In this document: one piece after another, positions 12,139 to 52,127 of the stretch
How positions within the stretch are numbered: the stretch's first letter is position 1
Layout: every line of letters starts with the position of its first letter
Source of the DNA: Oegoconia quadripuncta
Lineage: Eukaryota > Arthropoda > Insecta > Lepidoptera > Autostichidae
DNA length: 64,000 bases
Direction: 5' to 3'
Assembly: GCA_949316235.1 (NCBI GenBank)
Contig: OX438747.1
Coordinates: 32,088,601 to 32,152,600 of the forward strand
The notes under the pieces: generated by a model
Databases searched by the model: none
What the model was told of the DNA's origin: nothing
What the model saw: only the letters and a program-made list of their open reading frames with translations
Position numbers and translations under genes: made by a program

Positions 12139-12214
12139 ATGCAAATAAGTAAATCATTTGCACGATACATTTATATACTTAAGAATGTAAATTTAATGCA
12201 AATATGTATTTAAG
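12139..12214 (+). promoter_or_regulatory. Candidate gene A promoter with POU octamers
   Basis: Two exact octamers ATGCAAAT lie at 12139-12146 and 12196-12203, with a reverse-strand near-match ATTTGCAC at 12156-12163. A TATA-like TATTTAAG is at 12207-12214, about 63 bp before the predicted start codon. In Bombyx, the POU factor SGF-3/POU-M1 binds octamer-like sites in the sericin-1 promoter (established). That these sites drive gene A in silk gland is inference. Confidence 0.45.
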
Positions 12215-12276: not shown

Positions 12277-12306
12277 ATGAGGTTGGTGTGCTTGTTTCTT
12301 TTGTTG
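12277..12306 (+). CDS. Gene A exon 1: start of signal peptide (predicted)
   Basis: ATG followed by ten codons reading MRLVCLFLLL, then a strong donor GTAAGT at 12307. A basic second residue and an all-hydrophobic run are what the first half of a secretory signal peptide looks like. A first coding exon that stops inside the signal peptide is known from lepidopteran silk genes such as fibroin heavy chain. Upstream are a TATA-like box and POU octamers at a suitable distance. The exon ends in phase 0, whereas the giant exon at 16865 begins in phase 1. At least one small exon must therefore lie between them, and I could not fix it. I rate the assignment to gene A as likely but unproven. Confidence 0.55.
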
Positions 12307-12360: not shown

Positions 12361-12960
12361 AAACCCCTGCTACTGAAGAGTTCCACTATCCTGGCTCCAT
12401 CATCAGACCCTCGACACCAAGTACAATATATTGGACTCGTCAAATGGAATCATATGAGCCCAAACTGGATAGGTTTACTGCCATTGAAAAGTTCCGCAAA
12501 ACACCTCCTAGTTCTGTCATCAGACCCTCGACACCAAGTACAATATATTAGACTCGCCAAATCGAATCATATGAGCCCAAACTGGATAGGTTTACTGCCA
12601 TTGAAAAGTTCCGCAAAACACCTCCTAGTTCTGTCATCAGACCCTCGACACCAAGTACAATATATTAGACTCGTCAAATCGAATCATACGAGCCCAAACT
12701 CGAGGGGTTGCCATTGAAAAGTTCCACAAACCACCTCCTGGTTCTGTCATCAGACCCTCGACACCAAGTGCAATATATTGGACACATCAAGGGGTTTACT
12801 AATAGCCACTTAAGAGTTAGTTCCTCAATCCATGTCCTGGTTCCATCGTCAGACCCTCGACACCAACTGCAATATGTTGAATTCGTCAACACGAATCATA
12901 TACGCCCAAACTCGAAGGGTTTACTGCTACTGAATGTTCCATAATCCACCTCCTGAGTCC
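12361..12960. repeat. 117-bp tandem repeat in gene A intron 1
   Basis: The block CATCAGACCCTCGACACCAA recurs at 12401, 12518, 12635 and 12748, with a diverged copy near 12847: periods 117, 117, 113 and about 99. The second and third units are almost identical. The array begins only 54 bp after the exon 1 donor. Related inverted sequence is at 5220-5430. Confidence 0.85.
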
Positions 12961-13579: not shown

Positions 13580-13850
13580 CAATCTCACCTGATGGGAAGA
13601 GACGATCTGGCTGAAGATGATGCACACGATCTCAGTAGGTGCCTATTCACCCTGCTCCTAAAGATCCCAAGGTTGTAGGATGCAGGAAAGACTGACGCCG
13701 GAAGGGAGTTCCATGCCTTGGCTGTTCGGATTATGAATGTAGAGTCGAACCGCTTAATGCGAATGTTCGGTATGTTTACATATACACTTTCTTTCAGGTT
13801 CCTCCGGGCTTGAGCTTTCCCTTTGGATTTTCTGACAGTAAGTATATACA
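13580..13850 (-). pseudogene. LINE reverse transcriptase C-terminal tail
   Basis: The minus-strand frame reads VNIPNIRIKRFDSTFIIRT, then AKAWNSLPASVFPASYN and RVNRHLL. This is the same kind of ORF2 tail as at 7815-8150. It is 5'-truncated at about 13850, where an unrelated repeat starts. The opposite strand carries a well-formed but possibly accidental exon signature at 13798-13837 (see findings). Confidence 0.65.
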
Positions 13851-16790: not shown

Positions 16791-16864
16791 ATATTTGGTA
16801 TAAATAGTACAGTGCCACTACAACCTTACGATAACCTTATCTTATTTAATTAATATCTCCACAG

Positions 16865-19800
16865 AATTGAAGGGAACGGGAACACAGGCTCAGTCTGAAG
16901 CTCAGACACAGAATCAGTCTCAGCTCCAACCTCTAGCACAAGCTCAATCTCAGACTCAATCTGAAGCTCAATCTCAAATACAGGAACATAAAGAACCCTC
17001 ACATTATGACGATAGCAATAATGTTAAAAACCAGAAACTGGGTATAGCCAGAAGTAAAATCTCCGATGAATCAACAAAATGGTTAGGAAATAAACAAAAT
17101 ACGATGATAGCACATTGTGAGCAGCCAGAACCACCATGTGACAAACCAGAGCCTACTTGTGATAAACCAGAACCACCATGTGACGAACCAGAGCCTACTT
17201 GTGACCTACCAGAACCACCATCTGACATCCCAGAGCCTACTTGTGACCAGCCAGAACCACCATGTGACAGACCAGAGCCTACTTGTGACCAACCAGAACC
17301 ACCATGTGGCAAACCAGAACCACCATGTGACAAACCAGAGCCTACTTGTGACCAGCCAGAACCACCATGTGACAAACCAGAGCCTACTTGTGACCAAGCA
17401 GAACCACCATGTGACAAACCAGAGCCTACTTGTGACCAACCAGAACCACCATGCGACAAACCAGAGCCTACCTGTGATAAACCAGAACCACCATGTGACC
17501 AACCAGAACCACCATGTGACATCCCAGAGCCTACTTGTGAACAACCAGAACCACCATCTGACATCCCAGAGCCTACTTGTGACCAGCCAGAACTACCATG
17601 TGACAAACCAGAGTCTACTTGTGACCAACTAGAACCACCATGTGACAAACCAGAGCCTAGTTGTGACCAGCCAGAACCACCATGTGACAAACCAGAGCCT
17701 ACTTGTGATAAACCAGAACCACCATGTGACGAACCAGAGCCTACTTGTGACCTACCAGAACCACCATCTGACATCCCAGAGCCTACTTGTGACCAGCCAG
17801 AACCACAATGTGACATCCCAGAGCCTACTTGTGAACAACCAGAACCACCATGTGACAAACCAGAGCCAACTTGTGACCAATCAGAACCACCATGTGATAA
17901 ACCAGAGCCTACTTGTGACCAACCAGAACCACCATGTGACAAACCAGAGCCCACTTGTGACCAGCCAGAACCACCATGTGACAAACCAGAGCCTACTTGT
18001 GACCAACTAGAACAACCATGTGACAAACCAGAGCCTACTTGTGACCAGCCAGAACCACCATGTGACAAAGCAGAGCCTACTTGTGACCAACCAGAACCAC
18101 CATGTGACAAACCAGAGCCTACTTGTGACCAACCAGAACCACCATGTGACAAACCAGAGCCTACTTGTGACCAGCCAGAACCACCATGTGACAAACCAGA
18201 GCCTACTTGTAACCAACCAGAACCACCATGTGACAAACCAGAGCCTACTTGTGACCAACCAGAGCCTACTTGTGACCAACCAGAACCACCATGTGACAAA
18301 CCAGAGCCTACTTGTGACCAACCAGAACCACCATGCGACAAACCAGAGCCTACCTGTGATAAACCAGAACCACCATGTGACCAACCAGAACCACCATGTG
18401 ACATCCCAGAGCCTACTTGTGAACAACCAGAACCACCATGTGACAAACCAGAGCCAACTTGTGAACAACCAGAACCACCTTGTGATATCCCAGAGCCTAC
18501 TTGTGAACAACCAGAACCACCATGTGACAAACCAGAGCCAACTTGTGATCAACCAGAACCACCATGTGACAAACCAGAGCCTACTTGTGACCAACCAGAG
18601 CCTACTTGTGACCAACCAGAACCACCATGTGACAAACCAGAGCCTACTTGTGACCAACCAGAACCACCATGCGACAAACCAGAGCCTACCTGTGATAAAC
18701 CAGAACCACCATGTGACCAACCAGAACCACCATGTGACATCCCAGAGCCTACTTGTGACCAACCAGAACCACCATGTGACAAACCAGAGCCTACTTGTGA
18801 CCAACCAGAACCACCATGCGACAAACCAGAGCCTACCTGTGATAAATCAGAACCACCATGTGACCAACCAGAACCACCATGTGACATCCCAGAGCCTACT
18901 TGTGAACAACCAGAACCACCATGTGACAAACCAGAGCCAACTTGTGAACAACCAGAACCACCATGTGACAAAGCAGAGCCCACTTGTGACCAACCAGAAC
19001 CACCATGTGACAAACCAGAGCCTACTTGTGACCAACCAGAGCCTACTCGTGACCAACCAGAACCACCATGTGACAAACCAGAGCCTACTTGTGACCAACC
19101 AGAACCACCATGCGACAAACCAGAGCCTACCTGTGATAAACCAGAACCACCATGTGACCAACCAGAACCACCATGTGACATCCCAGAGCCTACTTGTGAC
19201 CAGCCAGAAACACCATGTGACAAACCAGAGCCTACTTGTGACCAACCAGAACCACCATGTGACAAACCAGAGCCTACTTATGACCAAACAGAACCACCAT
19301 GTGACAAACCAGAGCCTACTTGTGACCAACCAGAGCCTACTTGTGACCAACCAGAACCACCATGTGACAAACCAGAGCCTACTTGTGACCAACCAGAACC
19401 ACCATGCGACAAACCAGAGCCAACCTGTGATAAACCAGAACCACCATGTGACCAACCAGAACCACCATGTGACATCCCAGAGCCTACTTGTGAACAACCA
19501 GAACCACCATGTGACAAACCAGAGCCAACTTGTGAACAACCAGAACCACCATGTGACATCCCAGAGCCTACTTGTGACCAACCAGAACCACCATGTGACA
19601 CACCAGAGCCTACTTGTGACCAGCCAGAACCACCATGTGACAAACCAGAGCCTACTTGTGACCAGCCAGAACCACCATGTGACAAACCAGAGCCTACTTG
19701 TAACCAACCAGAACCACCATGCGACAAACCAGAGCCTACTTGTGATATACCAGAACCACCATGTGACGAACCAGAGCCTACTTGTGACCTACCAGAACCA

Positions 19801-22800
19801 CCATCTGACATCCCAGAGCCTACTTGTGACAAACCAGAACCAACATGTGACAAACCAGAGCCTACTTGTGACGAGCCAGAACCACCATGTGCCATCCCAG
19901 AGCCTACTTGTGACCAACCAGAACCACCATGTGACGTCCCAGAGCCTACTTGTGAACAACCAGAACCACCATGTGACAAAACAGAGCCAACTTGTGAACA
20001 ACCAGAACCACCATGTGACAAAACAGAGCCAACTTGTGACCAGCCAGAACCACCATATGACTTACCAGAGGCTACTTGTGACCAGCCAGAACCACCATGT
20101 GACAAACCAGAGCCTACTTGTGACCTACCAGAACCACCATCTGACATCCCAGAGCCTACTTGTGACAAACCAGAGCCTACTTGTGACCAGCCAGAACCAC
20201 CATGTGACAAACCAGAGCCTACTTGTGACGAGCCAGAACCACCATGTGCCATCCCAGAGCCTACTTGTGACCAACCAGAACCACCTTGTGATATCCCAGA
20301 GCCTACTTGTGAACAACCAGAACCACCATCTGACAAACCAGAGCCAACTTGTGATCAACCAGAACCACCATGTGACAAACCAGAGCCTACTTGTGACCAA
20401 CCAGATCCACCATGTGATATCCCAGAGCCTACTTGTGAACAACCAGAACCACCATGTGACAAACCAGAGCCAACTTGTGACCAACCAGAACCACCATGTG
20501 ACATGCCCGAGCCTACTTGTGAACAACCAGAACCACCATGTGACAAACCAGAGCCAACTTGTGACCAACCAGAACCACCATGTGACATCCCAGAGCCTAC
20601 TTGTGAACAACCAGAACCACAATGTGACAAACCAGAGCCAACTTGTGACCAACCAGAACCACCATGTGACAAACCAGAGCCTACTTGTGACCAACCAGAA
20701 CCACCATGTGACAAACAAGAGCCTACTTGTGACCAGCCAGAACCACCATGTGACAAACCAGAGCCTACTTGTGACCAGCCAGAACCACCATGTGACAAAC
20801 CAGAGCCTACTTGTGACCAACCAGAACCACCATGCGACAAACCAGAGCCTACTTGTGATAAACCAGAACTACCATGTGACAAACAAGAGCCTACTTGTGA
20901 CCAGCCAGAACCACCATGTGACAAACCAGAGCCTACTTGTGAACAACCAGAACCACCATGTGACAAACCAGAGCCTACTTGTGACCAGCCTGAACCACCC
21001 TGTGACAAACCAGAGCCAACTTGTGACAAACCAGAGCCTACTTGTGACCAACCAGAACCACCATGTGACAAACAAGAGCCTACTTGTGACCAGCCAGAAC
21101 CACCATGTGACAAACCAGAGCCTACTTGTGACCAGCCAGAACCACCATGTGACAAACCAGAGCCTACTTGTGACCAACCAGAACCACCATGTGACAAACC
21201 AGAGCCTACTTGTGACCAGCCAGAACCACCATGTGACAAACAAGAGCCTACTTGTGACCAGCCAGAACCACCATGTGACAAACCAGAGCCTACTTGTGAA
21301 CAACCAGAACCACCATGTGACAGACCAGAGCCAACTTGTGACCAACCAGAACCACCATGTGACAAACCAGAGCCTACTTGTGACCAGCCTGAACCACCCT
21401 GTGACAAACCAGAGCCAACTTGTGACAAACCAGAGCCTACTTGTGACCAACCAGAACCACCATGTGACAAACCAGAGCCTACTTGTGACCAACCAGAACC
21501 ACCATGTGACAAACCAGAGCCAACTTGTGGTCAACCAGAACCACCATGTGATAAACCAGAGCCTACTTGTGACCAACCAGAACCACCATGTGATAAACCA
21601 GAGCCTACTTGTGACCAACCAGAACCACCATGTGACAAACCAGAGCCAACTTGTGACCAACCAGAACCACCATGTGATAAACCAGAGCCTACTTGTGACC
21701 AACCAGAACCACCATGTGATAAACCAGAGCCTACTTGTGACCAACCAGAACCACCATATGACAAACCAGAGCCTACTTGTGACCAACCAGAACCACCATG
21801 TGACAAACCAGAGCCTACTTGTGACCAACCAGAACCACCATGTGACAAACCAGAGCCTACTTGTGACAAACCAGAGCCAACTTGTGACCAGCCTGAACCA
21901 CCCTGTGACAAACCAGAGCCAACTTGTGACAAACCAGAGCCTACTTGTGACCAACCAGAACCACCATGTGACAAACCAGAGCCTACTTGTGACCAACCAG
22001 AACCACCATGTGATAAACCAGAGCCTACTTGTGACCAACCAGAACCACCATGTGACAAACCAGAGCCAACTTGTGACCAACCAGAACCACCATGTGATAA
22101 ACCAGAGCCTACTTGTGACCAACCAGAACCACCATGTGACATCCCAGAGCCTACTTGTGACCAACCAGAACCACCATGTGACAAACCAGAGCCAACTTGT
22201 GACCAACCAGAACCACCATGTGACAAACCAGAACCTACTAGTGACCAGCCTGAACCACCCTGTGACAAACCAGAGCCAACTTGTGACAAACCAGAGCCTA
22301 CTTGTGACCAACCAGAACCACCATGTGACAAACCAGAGCCTACTTGTGACCAACCAGAACCACCATGTGACAAACCAGAGCCAACTTGTGACCAACCAGA
22401 CCCACCATGTGATATACCAGAGCCTACTTGTGACCAACCAGAACCACCATGTGATAAACCACAGCCTTGTGACCAACCAGAACCACCATGTGACAAACCA
22501 GAGCCAACTTGTGACCAACCAGAACCACCATGTGATAAACCAGAGCCTACTTGTGACCAACCAGAAACACCATGTGATAAACCAGAGCCTACTTGTGACC
22601 AACCAGAACCACCATGTGACAAACCAGAGCCTACTTGTGACCAACCAGAACCACCATGTGACAAACCAGAGCCTACTTGTGACAAACCAGAGCCTACTTG
22701 TGACCAACCAGAACCACCATGTGTCAAACCAGAGCCTACTTGTGACCAACCAGAACCACCATGTGACAAACCAGAGCCTACTTGTGACCAACCAGAACCA

Positions 22801-23227
22801 CCATGTGACAAACCAGAGCGTACTTGTGACCATCCAGAACCACCATGTGACAAACCAGAACCTACTTGTGACAAACCAGAACCCCCATGTGACAAACCAG
22901 AGCCTACTTGTGACCAACCTGAAGCTCCATGCGATAAACCAGAACCACCATGTGACAATGCAGAAATTTATCGCGACCCGTTGGATGATCCCGAAATTCA
23001 AAAGTTCCTCAAGGAAATTCGAATAGTTCCATCTTGTGACCAATCACAACCCCCAAGTGGAGAGCCGGAACGACCTTGTGACAACTCAGATTCCACTTTT
23101 GAGCAACCAGAAGCAAGTTGTGAACAACCAGAACCCCCCTGTGGTAATACGGAATCTTATCGCGACCCGTTAGAGGATCCCGAAATTCAAGAATTCCTCA
23201 AAGGAATTCGTATTGTATCTTCACCAG
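16865..23227 (+). CDS. Gene A giant exon: Cys/Pro heptad-repeat secreted protein
   Basis: A 6,363-nt exon bounded by acceptor CTCCACAG and donor GTATGT. It starts and ends in phase 1 and is open throughout (about 2,121 codons). Residues 1-40 are rich in Gln, Ala and Ser (AQSQTQSEAQSQ-like) and residues 41-87 are mixed. About 278 heptads follow, alternating PEPPCDK and PEPTCDQ: Pro at three positions of seven, two acids, one Cys. The last 90 residues hold two copies of a module beginning YRDPL (22963 and 23152). One repeat (near 22470) lacks a single codon; otherwise the phase never slips. No known family is recognised. A secreted structural (silk, cocoon or mucin-like) role is inferred from composition and from the neighbouring Ser-rich gene. 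Cys every seven residues would suit disulphide cross-linking. Splice sites are predicted only. Confidence 0.85.
17125..22956 (+). repeat. 21-bp coding minisatellite, about 278 units
   Basis: Unit CCAGAACCACCATGTGACAAA alternates with CCAGAGCCTACTTGTGACCAA, so the true period is 42 bp. Codon-7 variants are Lys, Gln, Ile, Glu, Leu, Thr, Arg, Val and Ala. Occasional units replace Cys with Ser, Tyr or Arg. Larger blocks recur too, for example one carrying ACCAACCAGAGCCTACTTGT doubled Thr units followed by a CDIPEPTCEQ unit near 18250, 18590, 19020 and 19320. Confidence 0.95.
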
Positions 23228-24103
23228 GTATGTGTTATTAAATTTTCACTATATTCTTACGTATTTATCTGTAATATTATTACGTACCTTTTTATATATT
23301 TTTATACTTCACTATACATAACATACACCAACTATTCATTATTATATTATATTATATTATACTGTCGTAGCGTTCGTGTCACTGAGCATTTGGGAGCACT
23401 GAAAATCAGCGCTGTGATTCGTCGCAGAATGAGCTGAGTGCTAACCCATTTGACCCGGCAACACGTGACAGCATTGTTTTAGCTATAATTTTTGTTTTTG
23501 TTTGGCGCTGTTCTTATTCTTAAAAATATTTAATTTCATAAAATCAATTTCCAAATGCCATCAGCTACCTAATTAAAAATTATGCTATATTTTCTGTATG
23601 TTTTAGTAATAAACATTAAAGACGGTAGGGTTCTCTACTCCACTCCACTCCACTCCGCTCCGCTCCACTCCATTCCACTCCACTCCCCGCTGAACCACCG
23701 ACGCTGTTAATATAAAATGAAATCTGTAATTGGCGAAACCCTGGCTTATACATTTTGTGTAATAGTTTTTCTTTAATATGCTATTGATTCTGTGTTATTC
23801 AAGATTTTTTTTATGCTTGACCTCAATCACGCCTGATGTTAAGTGAAGATGAGGTCGAAGGTGGAAGCGTACTGACCCGGAAACCCGGAAAGAGCTATCT
23901 TATCTCTGAGAACCGAAAAACAACAATGCTATTAACATTGCTGCTTGGCGGCAGATTTAGATAAGATGGTGGTAGCATTTAAAATGCCCTACCACCAACC
24001 CAACCGAGTACTTAAGCATGTACCCCGCTGGGGATCGAACCCGCGACCTTCGATAAAAATAATGAAATATTCTAATTTCATTAAATTTTGTACACTTTTC
24101 CAG
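23228..24103. other. Gene A last intron
   Basis: Holds a fragment related to the element at 40700-40999 (about 23365-23470), a CACTC/CGCTC pentanucleotide run at 23637-23692, a SINE C stub (CTGAACCACCGACGC) and a minus-strand SINE A at about 23812-24050. A polypyrimidine stretch and CAG end it at 24103. Confidence 0.5.
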
Positions 24104-24153
24104 AACAAGCACAGTCACAAGCACAGTCGCAGGCGCAATCACAGACCCAGTGA
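24104..24153 (+). CDS. Gene A terminal exon: QAQS repeat and stop (predicted)
   Basis: After acceptor TTTTCCAG, phase 1 joins the G left by the giant exon and reads Glu, then QAQSQAQSQAQSQTQ, then TGA at 24151-24153. The QAQS pattern repeats the head of the giant exon, which supports membership of gene A. It is most simply the last coding exon. However, a possible donor GTAATT begins at 24155, which would make a 51-nt, phase-symmetric cassette, and the TGA stands where the repeat pattern predicts Ser. A nonsense-bearing cassette exon is therefore the alternative. Confidence 0.55.
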
Positions 24154-24154
24154 G

Positions 24155-24792
24155 GTAATTATGAAGATGAAATCTATTCTATTCATCGCATAATATTCGT
24201 GGTACAGCATATATCGACAGCCTTGAGGCGTACCATGTAAAAGTAATTTTCTCAAACATGCATGGAAATATTGTCATTACTTTCGAAAAAAGAACACGCG
24301 AAGTATCTAATTTACGGACAGCGAAAAATAAATCCATTGCAGGAGCGTTTTTTGAATTTGAACATTACAACGCTCCAGCAATGTTGTATGAAACGGTGTG
24401 CTGGGTGTATTATATACACTTTGATTGGATCTCTTATATCTTTCTTGGCATACCAAAATCTCTTTGCTTAGTACAAATTCCGTACACGTGGCTGTATGCG
24501 TAAATGCGTTTGCCTTTCGGCACAGATGATAAATAGAAAATCGGCGGCAAAGCTGAAAATTCGTCTTGATTTGATATTTAAATATTTATCATTTCCCTGC
24601 ATTCTTTTGAGAAAAGCAGTATATATGCTTCGGCGGAAATGGCAATTGCCTATTTCCCGGCCTTTGCATTAATGTACTATTGCCAAATTTAGCGGCGGGT
24701 GATTGGATTCCACCTGGGATGCCGACGGTAAGTGTACCTAAGAAGAATAATTCAGTAGATGGTTGTGATAAGAGATAATTCTGTTTGTTGTA
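24155..24792. other. Gene A 3' region and unassigned sequence
   Basis: Short open frames here show no recognisable domain. A microexon-like segment lies at 24693-24727: acceptor TTTAG, donor GTAAGT, phase-1 reading AAGDWIPPGMPT. It is 35 nt, so it changes phase, and I do not place it in a gene. Confidence 0.3.
24327..24332 (+). terminator. Candidate poly(A) signal, gene A
   Basis: AATAAA 174 bp after the TGA; the first such hexamer downstream of the predicted stop. Confidence 0.35.
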
Positions 24793-26110: not shown

Positions 26111-27295
26111 CTCTGTGTAAAAAGTATCGGGAATATGTCAATAAAAAGACCCGCGTAAAAGAGGTCGTTCTAATTTTTTTACTGCATGTTGGTAGTGCTG
26201 TACTGATTTAACGCGCAAAATTTGAGCGGGATCTGTCATTTAATTTGTTTTAAACTACACTTTTTGTTGGTCATAGTTTTGAGTCCTCGGCGATTTTTAC
26301 AATGGAAAATATTGTTGAACAAAGAGTGTGCCTTAAATTTTGTGTTTCAAATGATATTTCATGTGGTGAATCACTAAAAATGTTGCGAAATACCTACGGC
26401 GAATCGTGTATATCGAAAACAAGGGCTTATGAATGGTATAAGGCTTTTAAAGAAGGCCGAGAAGTAGTAGTAGACTTGCCTCGTTCTGGTAGACCTTCAA
26501 CCGCTACGACCAAAGAAAACATCGACAGAATCAAGAAGCTAGTGCTCGAAAATCGACGTATGAGTTTGAGAGAGTTGGCTAGTGAGGTGAACATATCTTT
26601 TAAGTCCGTCCACAACATTCTCATTGACATTTTAGGCATGAAACGCGTCGCCGCTCGACTAGTTCCAAAAGAGCTCAATTTTGTTCAAAAAGCGCAGCGA
26701 AAGCATGTCGCTGAAGAAACCCAAAAAACCGCGGCAAAGTCGCTCCAAAATCAAGGTGATGCTGACAGTTTTTTTTGACTACCGTGGTGTGGTTCACTCC
26801 GAATTCCTTCCAGAGGGAGAAACAGTGAATAAAGAATATTATTTAGGCGTCATGAAGCGTTTGCGTGAGAGTATCCGCCGAAAACGTCCAGATTTGTGGC
26901 AACACAACTCATGGATGCTGCACCATGATAATGCACCATCACACACAGCCATTATAGTGAAAGAGTTTTTAGCGAAAAATTCAACAAAAGTTCTCGACCA
27001 AGCACCGTATTCACCTGATATGGCTCCGTCTGACTTTTTTTTATTTCCCAAGTTAAAATTACCACTTCGAGGAAAACGTTTTGAGTCGATAGAAGCCATA
27101 AAAGAAAATTCGCTGAATGAGCTAAAGGCCATACCGCAAATAGCCTATGAAAAATGTATGGAAGACTGGGTGAAGCGGTGGAGATGTTGTATTGCAAGCG
27201 ATGGGGCCTACTTTGAAGGCGATAAAATAAATTTAGATGAATAATTTGTATTTTTTGTTTTATTGACAAATTCCCGATACTTAGTACACTGAATG
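26111..27295 (+). mobile_element. mariner-like transposon, internally deleted
   Basis: Terminal inverted repeats share TTTATTGACA and CCCGATACTT (left arm about 26111-26144, right arm about 27261-27295). The element is about 1.19 kb, against about 1.3 kb for complete mariners; the shortfall matches the coding deletion described for 26302-27244. Confidence 0.85.
26302..27244 (+). pseudogene. mariner transposase with central deletion
   Basis: The first frame (26302-26700 or so) carries the DNA-binding region: YEWYKAFKEGRE, DLPRSGRPST, then SVHNILIDILGMKRV and VPKELNFVQK. The second frame (from about 26708 to TAA at 27244) carries the catalytic region: SKIKVMLTVFFDYRGVVHSE, MLHHDNAPSHT, and YSPDMAPSDFFLFPK. 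The second and third catalytic acids are present with 34 residues between them (D34D). The segment normally holding the first catalytic Asp (TGDETW-type motif) is gone, about 60 residues, and the junction shifts frame. It is inactive, but its ends could still be moved by a related transposase. Confidence 0.85.
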
Positions 27296-39817: not shown

Positions 39818-39859
39818 ATGAGTTTACTTTTGAGAGTGTGTTTGATCGCCATTGTTCAC
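39818..39859 (+). CDS. Gene B exon 1: signal peptide start
   Basis: ATG preceded by CAAC (good insect context), then 14 codons reading MSLLLRVCLIAIVH, then donor GTAAGT. Exon 2 continues in phase 0 and supplies the rest of a classic signal peptide. A 42-nt first coding exon ending inside the signal peptide is the same layout as lepidopteran fibroin heavy chain (established for Bombyx). All five exons assigned to gene B join to exactly 2,604 nt (867 codons plus stop), which strongly supports the chain. The product should enter the secretory pathway. Confidence 0.75.
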
Positions 39860-41040: not shown

Positions 41041-41074
41041 GTTTACCTAACGAACGCAGCACCTAGGCCAATTC
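41041..41074 (+). CDS. Gene B exon 2: end of signal peptide
   Basis: Acceptor TTTCATTTTCAG, 34 nt, donor GTAAGT. It enters in phase 0 from exon 1 and reads VYLTNAAPRPI plus the first base of a His codon. Joined to exon 1, the hydrophobic core continues through VYL and ends at TNA, giving a plausible signal-peptidase site before APRPI. In the other two frames a stop is met, so the phase is constrained. It leaves in phase 1, as do all later gene B introns. Confidence 0.75.
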
Positions 41075-49743: not shown

Positions 49744-52127
49744 GTAACCAAGCGTACTCATCTTCGAGCTCAAGTTTCCAACAATCAAGCTCCGATGACG
49801 GTTCAGATGAATCAGAAGACGAAGCTGCCTCGTCATCGGAAATCATACACGGTTGCAACGGAGACACCGACAGCAGAACTTCCAACGTTCGAAGGTCTCA
49901 ACAATCTTCTAGAACCGAAAATGGCTCAGAGCAATCCGAGAGCGAATCTGAATCATCATCAGAAGTCATAGAAGACGGCAATGGAGGTTCAAAGACCACC
50001 TCCAGCTCTTCAAGTTTCCAATCATTCAGTTCTCAAAGCGGTCCAGGATGTACGCCAGATAATAACGTAGGCTCTTTAAGAGAATCTTCTAGAAGCTCAA
50101 GTTCTTCATCTTCTAGTTCTAACAACTCTAATAGCAACTCAGAGCAATCATCCGCTTCTCACAGCAACTCTCAGACATCATCCGGATCTGGCAGCAGTTC
50201 GCAGTCAGCTTCCGGATCTGACAGTAACTGCCAATCCTCTTCTGGCTCAGACAGCAACGCTCAGGCATCGTCAGGATCCAATAGCAGCTCTCAGTCAGCT
50301 TCCGGATCTGACAGTAGCTCCCAATCCTCATCCGGCTCTGACAGCAGCTCTCAGTCATCATCCGGGTCTAACAGTAACTCTCAGTCAGCTTCTGGATCTG
50401 ACAGTAGCTCCCAATCCTCATCCGGCTCTGACAGCAGCTCTCAGTCATCATCTGGGTCTAACAGCAACTCTCAGTCAGCTTCCGGATCTGACAGTAACTG
50501 CCAATCCTCATCTGGCTCAGACAGCAACGCTCAGTCATCGTCAGGATCCAATAGCAGGTCTCAGTCAGCTTCCGGATCTGACAGTAGCTCCCAATCCTCA
50601 TCCGGCTCTGACAGCAATTCTCAGTCATCATCCGAGTCTAACAGTAGCTCTCAGTCAGATTCTGGTTCTGACAGTAGCTCCCAATCCTCATCCGGCTCTG
50701 ACAGCAGCTCTCAGTCATCATCTGGGTCTAACAGCAGCTCTCAGTCAGCTTCCGGATCTGACAGTAACTGCCAATCCTCATCTGGCTCAGACAGCAACGC
50801 TCAGTCATCGTCAGGATCCAATAGCAGGTCTCAGTCAGCTTCCGGATCTGACAGTAGCTCCCAATCCTCATCCGGCTCTGACAGCAGCTCTCAGTCATCA
50901 TCCGGGTCTAACAGCAGCTCTGAGTCTGCTTCCGGATCTGACAGTAGCTCCCAATCCTCATCCGGCTCTGACAGCAGCTCTCAGTCATCATCCGGGTCTA
51001 ACAGCAGCTCTGAGTCTGCTTCCGGATCTGACAGTAGCTCCCAATCCTCATCCGGCTCTGACAGCAGCTCTCAGTCATCATCGGGGTCTAACAGCAACTC
51101 TCAGTCAGCTTCCGGATCTGACAGTAGCTCCCAATCCTCATCCGGCTCTGACAGCAGCTCTCAGTCATCATCCGGGTCTAACAGCAGCTCTCAGTCAGCA
51201 TCCGGGTCAGACAGTAGTTCTCAGGCAACATCCGGGTCTGATAGTAGTTCTCAGTCATCATCCGGGTCTAACAGCAGCTCTCAGTCAGCTTCCGGATCTG
51301 ACAGTAGCTCCCAATCCTCATCCGGCTCTGACAGCAGCTCTGAGTCATCATCGGGGTCTAACAGCAACTCTCAGTCAGCTTCCGGATCTGACAGTAGCTC
51401 CCAATCCTCATCCGGCTCTGACAGCAGCTCTCAGTCATCATCCGGGTCTAACAGCAGCTCTCAGTCAGCATCCGGGTCAGACAGTAGTTCTCAGGCAACA
51501 TCCGGGTCTGATAGTAGTTCTCAGTCATCATCCGGGTCTAACAGCAGCTCTCAGTCAGCTTCCGGATCTGACAGTAGCTCCCAATCCTCATCCGGCTCTG
51601 ACAGCAGCTCTCAGTCATCATCCGGGTCTAACAGCAACTCTCAGTCAGCATCCAGGTCAGACAGTAGTTCTCAGGCAACATCCGGGTCTGATAGTAGTTC
51701 TCAGTCATCATCCGGGTCTAACAGCAGCTCTCAGTCAGCTTCCGGATCTGACAGTAGCTCCCAATCCTCATCCGGCTCTGACAGCAGCTCTCAGTCATCC
51801 TCCGGATCTAACAGCAGCTCTCAGTCAGCATCCGGGTCAGACAGTAGTTCTCAGTCATCTTCCGGATCTGACAGAAGCTCCCAATCCACATCCGGCTCTG
51901 ACAGCAGCTCACAGTCATCGTCCGGCTCTGACAGCAGTTCTCAATCATCGTCCAGCTCTGACAGCAGCTCCCAGTCATCATCCGGATCTGATAGAAGCTC
52001 GCAGTCATCATCTAGCTCTGACAGCAGCTCTCAGTCAGCGTATAGCTATGACAGCAGCTCCCAATCTTCATCCAGCTCTGACAGCAGCTCTCAGTCATCA
52101 TCGAGTGCTGACAGTAATTGTCAGTAA
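49744..52127 (+). CDS. Gene B exon 5: sericin-like Ser-rich repeat domain
   Basis: Acceptor CTCTCCTTCAAG; entered in phase 1 (G from exon 4 makes Gly), open for 793 further codons to TAA at 52125-52127. The first 130 residues are acidic and Ser-rich (NQAYSSSSSSFQQSSSDDG, then SESESESSSEVIEDG). About 65 tandem decapeptides of the type SGSDSSSQSS follow, often grouped as Asp-, Asp-, Asn-versions. The end reads SSADSNCQ. The exon contains no ATG in frame. Ser-dominated hydrophilic tandem repeats behind a signal peptide are the hallmark of lepidopteran sericins, the cocoon glue of the middle silk gland. The repeat itself is not one I can match to a named sericin. The function is inferred from composition, gene layout and the neighbouring gene A. 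Confidence 0.85.
50160..52124 (+). repeat. 30-bp coding minisatellite
   Basis: Unit TCCGGCTCTGACAGCAGC plus 12 nt of Ser/Gln codons. A 90-bp higher-order unit is common (two Asp units, then one Asn unit ending in Ala). The 30-bp register does not shift once over almost 2 kb. Rare units have Cys (DSNCQSS) or Tyr (SAYSYD near 52040). Confidence 0.9.

Follow-up and report, generated by a model that had tools for sequence, protein, structure and literature searches.

What might be the role of a protein in which a short, cysteine-bearing unit of seven residues recurs 278 times? The question is raised by a giant exon on the forward strand of a 64,000-nt stretch of DNA from the moth Oegoconia quadripuncta (C6:32088601-32152600, referred to below as the window; the assembly comprises 622.6 Mb in 45 contigs, and the C6 contig is 36.4 Mb long). 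We favour, with a probability of about 0.6, the reading that the gene containing this exon, the heptad gene, encodes a structural protein that is secreted into moth silk and most likely belongs to its adhesive coat or glue. This reading is based on a split signal peptide, a regular array of cysteine, proline and acidic residues, and the position of the gene in a cluster of silk-type genes. Expression in the silk gland and bonding of the protein through disulphides are inferred.

The repeat array and its exon

The giant exon (16865..23227, +; phase 1-1) consists of 6363 bp, or 2121 codons, without a stop, as an earlier note on this DNA had claimed, and is enclosed by an open frame running from 16804 to 23241. 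Tandem Repeats Finder (TRF) placed a 42-bp unit at 17115-22956, with 139.2 copies and a score of 6300. In translation, the array (17125..22959, +, delimited by TRF and by counting the heptads) contains 278 heptads, 277 of them full and one a 6-mer. The earlier note had described about 278 copies of PEP[PT]CD[KQ]; the number stands, but this strict pattern is matched by 189 of the 277 full heptads, and the shorter pattern PEP[PT]C has 240 matches within the exon. Position 4 is held by Thr in 139 heptads and by Pro in 135, and its pairing with position 7 is Pro with Lys in 99 of the 277 and Thr with Gln in 112. The two types, PEPPCDK and PEPTCDQ, alternate at 254 of the 276 junctions, so that the true unit of the array is the 14-mer PEPPCDK-PEPTCDQ (peptides of the array are of the PEPPCDKPEPTCDQ type and the PEPTCDQPEPPCDK type). 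The proline content originally given, three positions in seven, holds for the PEPPCDK type, while the PEPTCDQ type has two. The recurrence of cysteine at nearly every seventh residue was borne out. It occupies position 5 in 266 of the 277 full heptads, and the 267 cysteines of the array (close to 280 evenly spaced thiols had been claimed) are separated by 7 residues in 254 cases, by 14 in 11 and by 6 in one.

Autocorrelation of the array peaks at 42 bp (0.895) and declines with distance. The longest exact duplicate inside it is 209 bp, and all its 251-mers are unique. The array grew through ongoing local duplications, and chance is excluded as its origin. With the array as a query against its own genome, at least 81 matches were obtained at E ≤ 10, at least 76 of these in the giant exon. 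The five other matches listed were on C17, C13, C5 and C18 and at C8:18948870 (E 0.087), where the repeats are of the KPEPAVN type with one Cys in the stretch that was read; the match on C5 looks, by eye, like a retroelement frame. In this genome a single locus of the heptad array was detected.

Outside the array the exon encodes a QAQS-rich N-terminal stretch and two C-terminal modules of the form NxExYRDPLxDPEIQxFLKxIRIV. The first module (NAEIYRDPLDDPEIQKFLKEIRIV, 22957..23028, +) and the second (NTESYRDPLEDPEIQEFLKGIRIV, 23146..23217, +) were located by translation and are identical at 19 of 24 positions. AlphaFold2, run from the single sequence on 108 residues, gave two short helices for the modules, at a low mean predicted local distance difference test score (pLDDT) of 57.9.

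The codons of the array were compared with a reference made up of the commonest codon at each position, transitions being weighted twice and the 6-mer and three units without Pro or Thr at position 4 being dropped. Synonymous differences numbered 110, compared to 50.5 expected, and non-synonymous differences 123, compared to 182.5 expected, giving an omega-like ratio of 0.31. Position 7 is the least conserved, holding 63 of the 123 non-synonymous changes. The openness of the frame is by itself weak evidence, because another frame is also open, for 1671 codons.

A predicted four-exon gene

In the predicted gene the giant exon is the third of four, carrying the array and its non-array flanks. 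Exon 1 (12277..12306, +), noticed by eye and then recovered by a scan, encodes MRLVCLFLLL, the start of a signal peptide, and ends in phase 0 at a GTAAGT donor. The scan covered both strands of the window for an ATG with a strongly hydrophobic start followed by GT[AG]AG, and in its strict form returned two matches, 12277 and a GT microsatellite. A laxer threshold of hydrophobicity adds 39818 and 42901, making exon 1 one of four in the window. Exon 2 (13798..13837, +), from an exon scan, encodes VPPGLSFPFGFSD and, with its last base, opens a Lys codon (phase 1) that is completed at the junction with exon 3 as A|AA. It was the sole phase 0-to-1 candidate in the 4.5-kb interval under the acceptor and donor rules of the script; because a reverse-strand control also yielded one candidate, with another peptide, the choice of exon 2 rests on the phases and on its fit to a signal peptide. 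Exon 4, as predicted (24104..24153, +; acceptor TTTTCCAG), encodes (E)QAQSQAQSQAQSQTQ and then a stop, and an AATAAA polyadenylation signal follows 174 bp past the stop (24327..24332, +). Provided that exon 4 is terminal, the model ends in EQAQSQAQSQAQSQTQ; a GTGAGG donor seen by eye within this exon leaves room for an alternative 3' end. Intron 1 contains a 117-bp tandem repeat (12400-12790, 3.4 copies), with similar words visible by eye around 5.3 kb on the opposite strand, and a mariner-type transposase lies at 26254-27244 in two frames (PF17906, PF01359).

The joined four-exon model comprises 2160 amino acids, including 687 Pro, 317 Glu, 273 Cys (12.6%), 268 Asp and 35 Ser. The predicted protein is acidic, with 585 Asp and Glu against 141 Lys and Arg, and has a calculated isoelectric point of 4.05 and a mass of 235 kDa when the first 19 residues are left out. 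Its signal peptide is split over the first exons, and G-L-S (-3/-1) ahead of FPF would fit a signal-peptidase site. On this model the heptad protein is probably secreted.

Four POU-octamer-like sites are located upstream of the gene at 12139..12203 (+), namely ATGCAAAT at 12139 and 12196, ATGTAAAT at 12185 and GTGCAAAT, on the minus strand, at 12156. They are followed by a TATA-like TATTTAA (12207..12213, +), 70 bp ahead of the ATG. The flanks of the window, 110 kb on its left and 90 kb on its right, were also scanned by script, and coordinates throughout are relative to the window start. The resulting 264 kb contain 83 sites of this kind, by patterns that were picked once the sequence had been seen, and nowhere else do four fall within 100 bp; three of the window's nine TGCAAAT cores lie in this group. 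In PMC5831788, a table block with references on Bombyx sericin-1, its label cut off, lists ATGTAAAT among POU-M1 elements. According to PMC7230888, the promoter of Bombyx sericin-1 contains octamer-like sequences that POU-M1 recognises. POU-M1 is described as strong in the anterior silk gland and the front part of the middle gland.

The surrounding silk-type cluster

The cluster to which the heptad gene belongs spans about 143 kb. One neighbour is a Ser-rich gene of three predicted exons with the same phases as the heptad gene. Its exon 1 (39818..39859, +, MSLLLRVCLIAIVH, phase 0) was chosen from several first-exon candidates, its exon 2 (41041..41074, +, VYLTNAAPRPI, phase 1) from three candidates, and its exon 3 (49744..52127, +), defined by TRF and the joined model, carries SSGSDSSSQ repeats and ends in SNCQ and a stop. 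The predicted product, MSLLLRVCLIAIVH-VYLTNAAPRPI-R-NQAYSSSS..., has 819 amino acids, of which 461 are Ser (56%) and 7 are Cys. The sericin-like array at 50148-52097 is made up of 90-bp units of the SSGSDSSSQ type in 21.7 copies. Between -36.6 and -59.1 kb the minus strand carries 21 exon candidates of one or more mucin-like genes, 19 of them in phase 1-1; the list was generated by a composition filter, taking the longest reading for each acceptor. They encode QSQAQS blocks and mini-exons of Asp, Gly and His with one Cys, eg HGHGDDCDDG. Further QSQAQS blocks occur on that strand from -30.7 to -55.7 kb, the region as a whole extending from -30.1 to -59.1 kb.

Two Cys-rich genes, A and B, are found further to the left. 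Gene A (C6:31998220-32003816) is predicted to encode a small, secreted-type protein of Cys, Pro and Glu, with CEPEP/CEPEH pentads and CYEYPQESCEPV repeats. Its exon 1 (-90380, +, MKVALLLVGFAL) was one of four first exons listed, its exon 2 (-89047, +, IACACARPCG) one of six candidates listed under laxer rules, and its last exon, encoding EPETCEQDSC...CEPEHCEPEP...CYEYPQESCEPVAEP...CDDDCC and a stop, ends at -84.8 kb (-84784, +). Gene B, on the minus strand, begins with a signal exon at -74590 (MRYTILFFAFFL), continues with exon 2 at -76915 (LACASARPCE, one of three candidates listed) and has its last exon, KPPCDSDPCDDPCDD...KPCDKPPC and a stop, near -78.6 kb (about -78635). Its predicted product is a 99-residue protein of secreted type whose repeats are (PCDD)n and (SCED)n. 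Since genes A and B have in common signal exons of 36 and 31 nt (phases 0 and 1) and the motif [IL]ACA[CS]ARPC[GE], they are read, on these gene models, as paralogues of each other. The heptad gene is tied to them more weakly, by its phases, its Cys, Pro and acidic residues and its proximity, and the A|AA junction is also present in B. Against its own genome the gene A exon gave 14 matches at E ≤ 1, the second-best at E 0.022.

A search for CXCX termini over the 264 kb returned many chance frames and was not used, and the cluster yielded no identified terminus of the Ser1 or Muc1 type. Farther right, C2H2 zinc-finger domains occur in two frames. Fibroin_P25 matched above its curated cut-off on C1 and C17, and in none of 14 control genomes, which, taken with the sericin-like gene, indicates a lepidopteran genome, very probably that of a moth. 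At C17:7509015-7578198, four weaker Fibroin_P25-like matches lie within 70 kb, probably representing fibrohexamerin-like genes.

Alternatives, mechanism and known systems

Relatives of the heptad protein were sought by several routes. In the protein database, whose coverage of insects is uncertain, a search with residues 1960-2120 of the exon product produced 157 candidates, of which none reached E ≤ 1. Among 2035 candidates for residues 430-742 of the last 742, two lay at E ≤ 1, P0001 (E 1.9e-4) and P0002 (E 0.65), and a 250-residue piece of the array gave a single match (E 0.18, 1460 candidates), a Streptomyces "NADH-quinone oxidoreductase subunit C". All three were rejected as relatives and are taken as likenesses of composition, P0001 and P0002 being Pro repeats without the Cys heptad. 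Among solved structures the giant exon had one match (E 0.39) and the heptad consensus none, and Pfam gave no domain in the giant exon (E ≤ 1), the gene A exon or gene B. In the literature, where subscription papers lay mostly outside the search, the heptad letters in six forms matched in unrelated fields only, and no moth silk protein of the Cys-heptad type surfaced in general searches on silk and Cys. A literature query for SPRR returned nothing.

Several points weigh against a silk-coat component. No homologue of the heptad protein was found in the protein database or in the literature searches, and the introns of the gene are predictions. The repeat copies are related through duplication and are not independent of each other, and among distinct single-base variants the synonymous excess is weak (14 vs 34). 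Cysteine is replaced in the array by Ser in seven heptads, by Tyr in three and by Arg in one. Octamer-like sites were not found within 250 bp of the starts of gene A or the Ser-rich gene, gene B having one, and a title cited in PMC5831788 names POU-M1 as an inhibitor of sericin-1; set beside its anterior expression, this means that the octamer-like sites may act in either direction. The rules applied to the heptad and sericin-like genes overlooked exon 2 of gene A and gave a different, unlikely candidate; the exon was chosen later, for its likeness to gene B. Neither A nor B is among the listed genome matches of the array query (E ≤ 10), and the likeness is one of composition and exon plan. 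In sources including PMC9684489, most moth silk coats are described as rich in Ser or Gln and poor in cysteine, zonadhesin-like proteins apart.

A secreted, cross-linked protein of another tissue, ie a colleterial egg glue or a component of the eggshell, gut lining or cuticle, would also have a signal peptide and might well have Cys/Pro repeats, which suit any hardened secreted matrix, and the Drosophila glue protein Sgs4 is, according to PMC9409817, expressed in the proventriculus too. The absence of a Pfam domain in the giant exon is neutral in this respect, but the neighbours are of silk type (the Ser-rich three-exon gene and the exon-duplicating QSQAQS gene), and we regard another tissue as unlikely. 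We think it rather less likely that the main chemistry is other than disulphide, whether transglutaminase bonds between Gln and Lys or the binding of Ca2+ or another metal by acidic, thiol-rich repeats. The 585 acidic residues and a position 7 that alternates between Lys and Gln would suit such a chemistry, as would the example of EDCRP, for which both disulphide and transglutaminase bonds have been proposed and which in one falcon alternates CCDPCQKP with CCDPCQQSV (PMC4423139). However, it is position 7 that has accumulated the most non-synonymous change, while cysteine is kept in nearly all the heptads.

The array might instead be a recently expanded coding minisatellite of little or no use, in a silent or decaying gene. 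The exact internal duplicates, the relatives not found in the protein and own-genome searches and the weak synonymous excess of the distinct variants are what such an origin would leave behind; 2121 codons without a stop or frameshift, the intact splice sites and signal peptide of the model, the retention of cysteine and the synonymous excess by counts are not, and we hold this explanation to be improbable. That the length of the array is an artefact of assembly, as the earlier note had allowed, is very improbable indeed. Tandem arrays are often misassembled, and Sgs4 repeat numbers were so in one population data set (PMC6352337), but with unique 251-mers, a longest duplicate of 209 bp and a contig of 36.4 Mb, long reads should assemble this array.

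For a component of the silk coat the following mechanism is proposed. The heptad gene would be transcribed in the silk gland, and its Pro-rich array, with a net charge calculated from the composition as about -1.6 per heptad, would stay extended and, owing to this charge, soluble until spinning. A polyproline-II chain rises about 3.1 Å per residue and makes a turn every three residues. In an array of this form, neighbouring cysteines would be ~22 Å apart and turned by ~120 degrees per heptad, presenting three faces, so that the nearest thiols of the same chain would hardly pair and bonds would form between chains. After spinning the thiols would oxidise, mostly with those of other chains or with the few cysteines of the sericin- and mucin-like neighbours, to give a cross-linked glue, and the Lys and Gln that alternate along the array would leave room for a second bond, of the transglutaminase type. 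The YRDPL/DPEIQ modules and the QAQS tails are probable ends for assembly or interaction. Of the disulphide-cross-linked glue or fibre suggested in the earlier note, a secreted, thiol-rich glue or coat is the best supported part, through the signal peptide and the cluster, and a disulphide network is plausible.

Tentatively, and with slightly less than even confidence, we propose a new class of moth silk-coat protein, with one giant and two small members, which would set by thiols rather than by hydrogen bonding of Ser-rich chains, the giant member carrying ~267 evenly spaced cysteines on a stiff acidic chain, and which would have evolved independently of Sgs4. If this is true the scale is very large, with 273 Cys in one chain, and the question is raised whether disulphides in moth silk have been overlooked by models based on sericins. 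The regular 14-residue unit offers an obvious template for a recombinant polythiol glue, and the cluster suggests that fast-changing, Cys-rich coat genes may be traceable through position and exon plan where sequence search fails.

Among silk genes, Ser2 and Ser3 of Yponomeuta are adjoining, three-exon and very Ser-rich, and mucin 1 multiplies whole exons, as described in PMC9684489. The Ser-rich neighbour is shaped like Ser2 and Ser3, and the whole-exon multiplication of the mucin-like gene recalls mucin 1. The heptad gene itself is predicted to have short signal-peptide exons ahead of one giant exon of repeats, with a sericin-like gene nearby, and recalls sericins of this type through their three-exon plan, repeats in large exons, clustering and hydrophilic character; pyralid sericins also occur clustered (PMC9745057). 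The product was rejected as a sericin, with 35 Ser in 2160 residues compared to the 44-62% Ser reported for sericins, and, provided that exon 4 is terminal, the C-terminus EQAQSQAQSQAQSQTQ has no Ser1-type CXCX. Nor does the model have the C-terminal CXCXCX of the silk mucin Muc1/P150, and its single giant exon contrasts with the duplicated exons of Muc1. Silk zonadhesin-like proteins, which belong to the silk coat, approach its cysteine level with 12-14% (PMC9684489), but contain TIL/EGF domains, whereas the giant exon has no Pfam match at E ≤ 1.

Avian EDCRP and mammalian KRTAP and SPRR are, by description, like the heptad protein in their short Cys/Pro repeats, their Lys- and Gln-bearing units and the disulphide and transglutaminase bonds proposed (PMC4423139, PMC8348711). 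They are vertebrate keratinocyte proteins, however, and EDCRP has 29-38% Cys compared to 12.6%. Membership of the SPRR/EDCRP group was rejected; in place of the vertebrate epidermal differentiation complex, Fibroin_P25 matches and a sericin-like neighbour were found here.

The salivary glands of flies are labial glands. The silk gland of the silkworm is labial too (PMC5831788). Sgs4 has the repeats CRTEPPT, CDTEPPT and CNTEPPT and is intronless, with 255-361 amino acids and a variable number of about 4 to 35 repeats; it is reported as confined to the D. melanogaster subgroup, and oxidation in air is the authors' proposal for the glue (PMC6352337). A table of PMC9409817 gives Sgs4 for D. suzukii and D. 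mojavensis too. The likeness to the heptad protein lies in a 7-residue, one-Cys repeat with Glu, Pro and Thr and in the signal peptide, Sgs4 being a secreted glue, and in D. simulans Sgs4 also has Asp after Cys. The order of the residues differs, CD[KQ]PEP[PT] compared to CDTEPPT, and the heptad gene is unlike Sgs4 in having three predicted introns, 278 heptads, two alternating types and Lys/Gln. Because such heptads are known from Sgs4, the original claim that no described family has this repeat must be softened, although no relative was found. On the published repeat descriptions we read the likeness as convergent, one of working rather than of homology with the heptad protein. If the heptad protein is expressed in silk, moths, like flies and vertebrate skin, would have come to use short Cys/Pro repeats for hardening.

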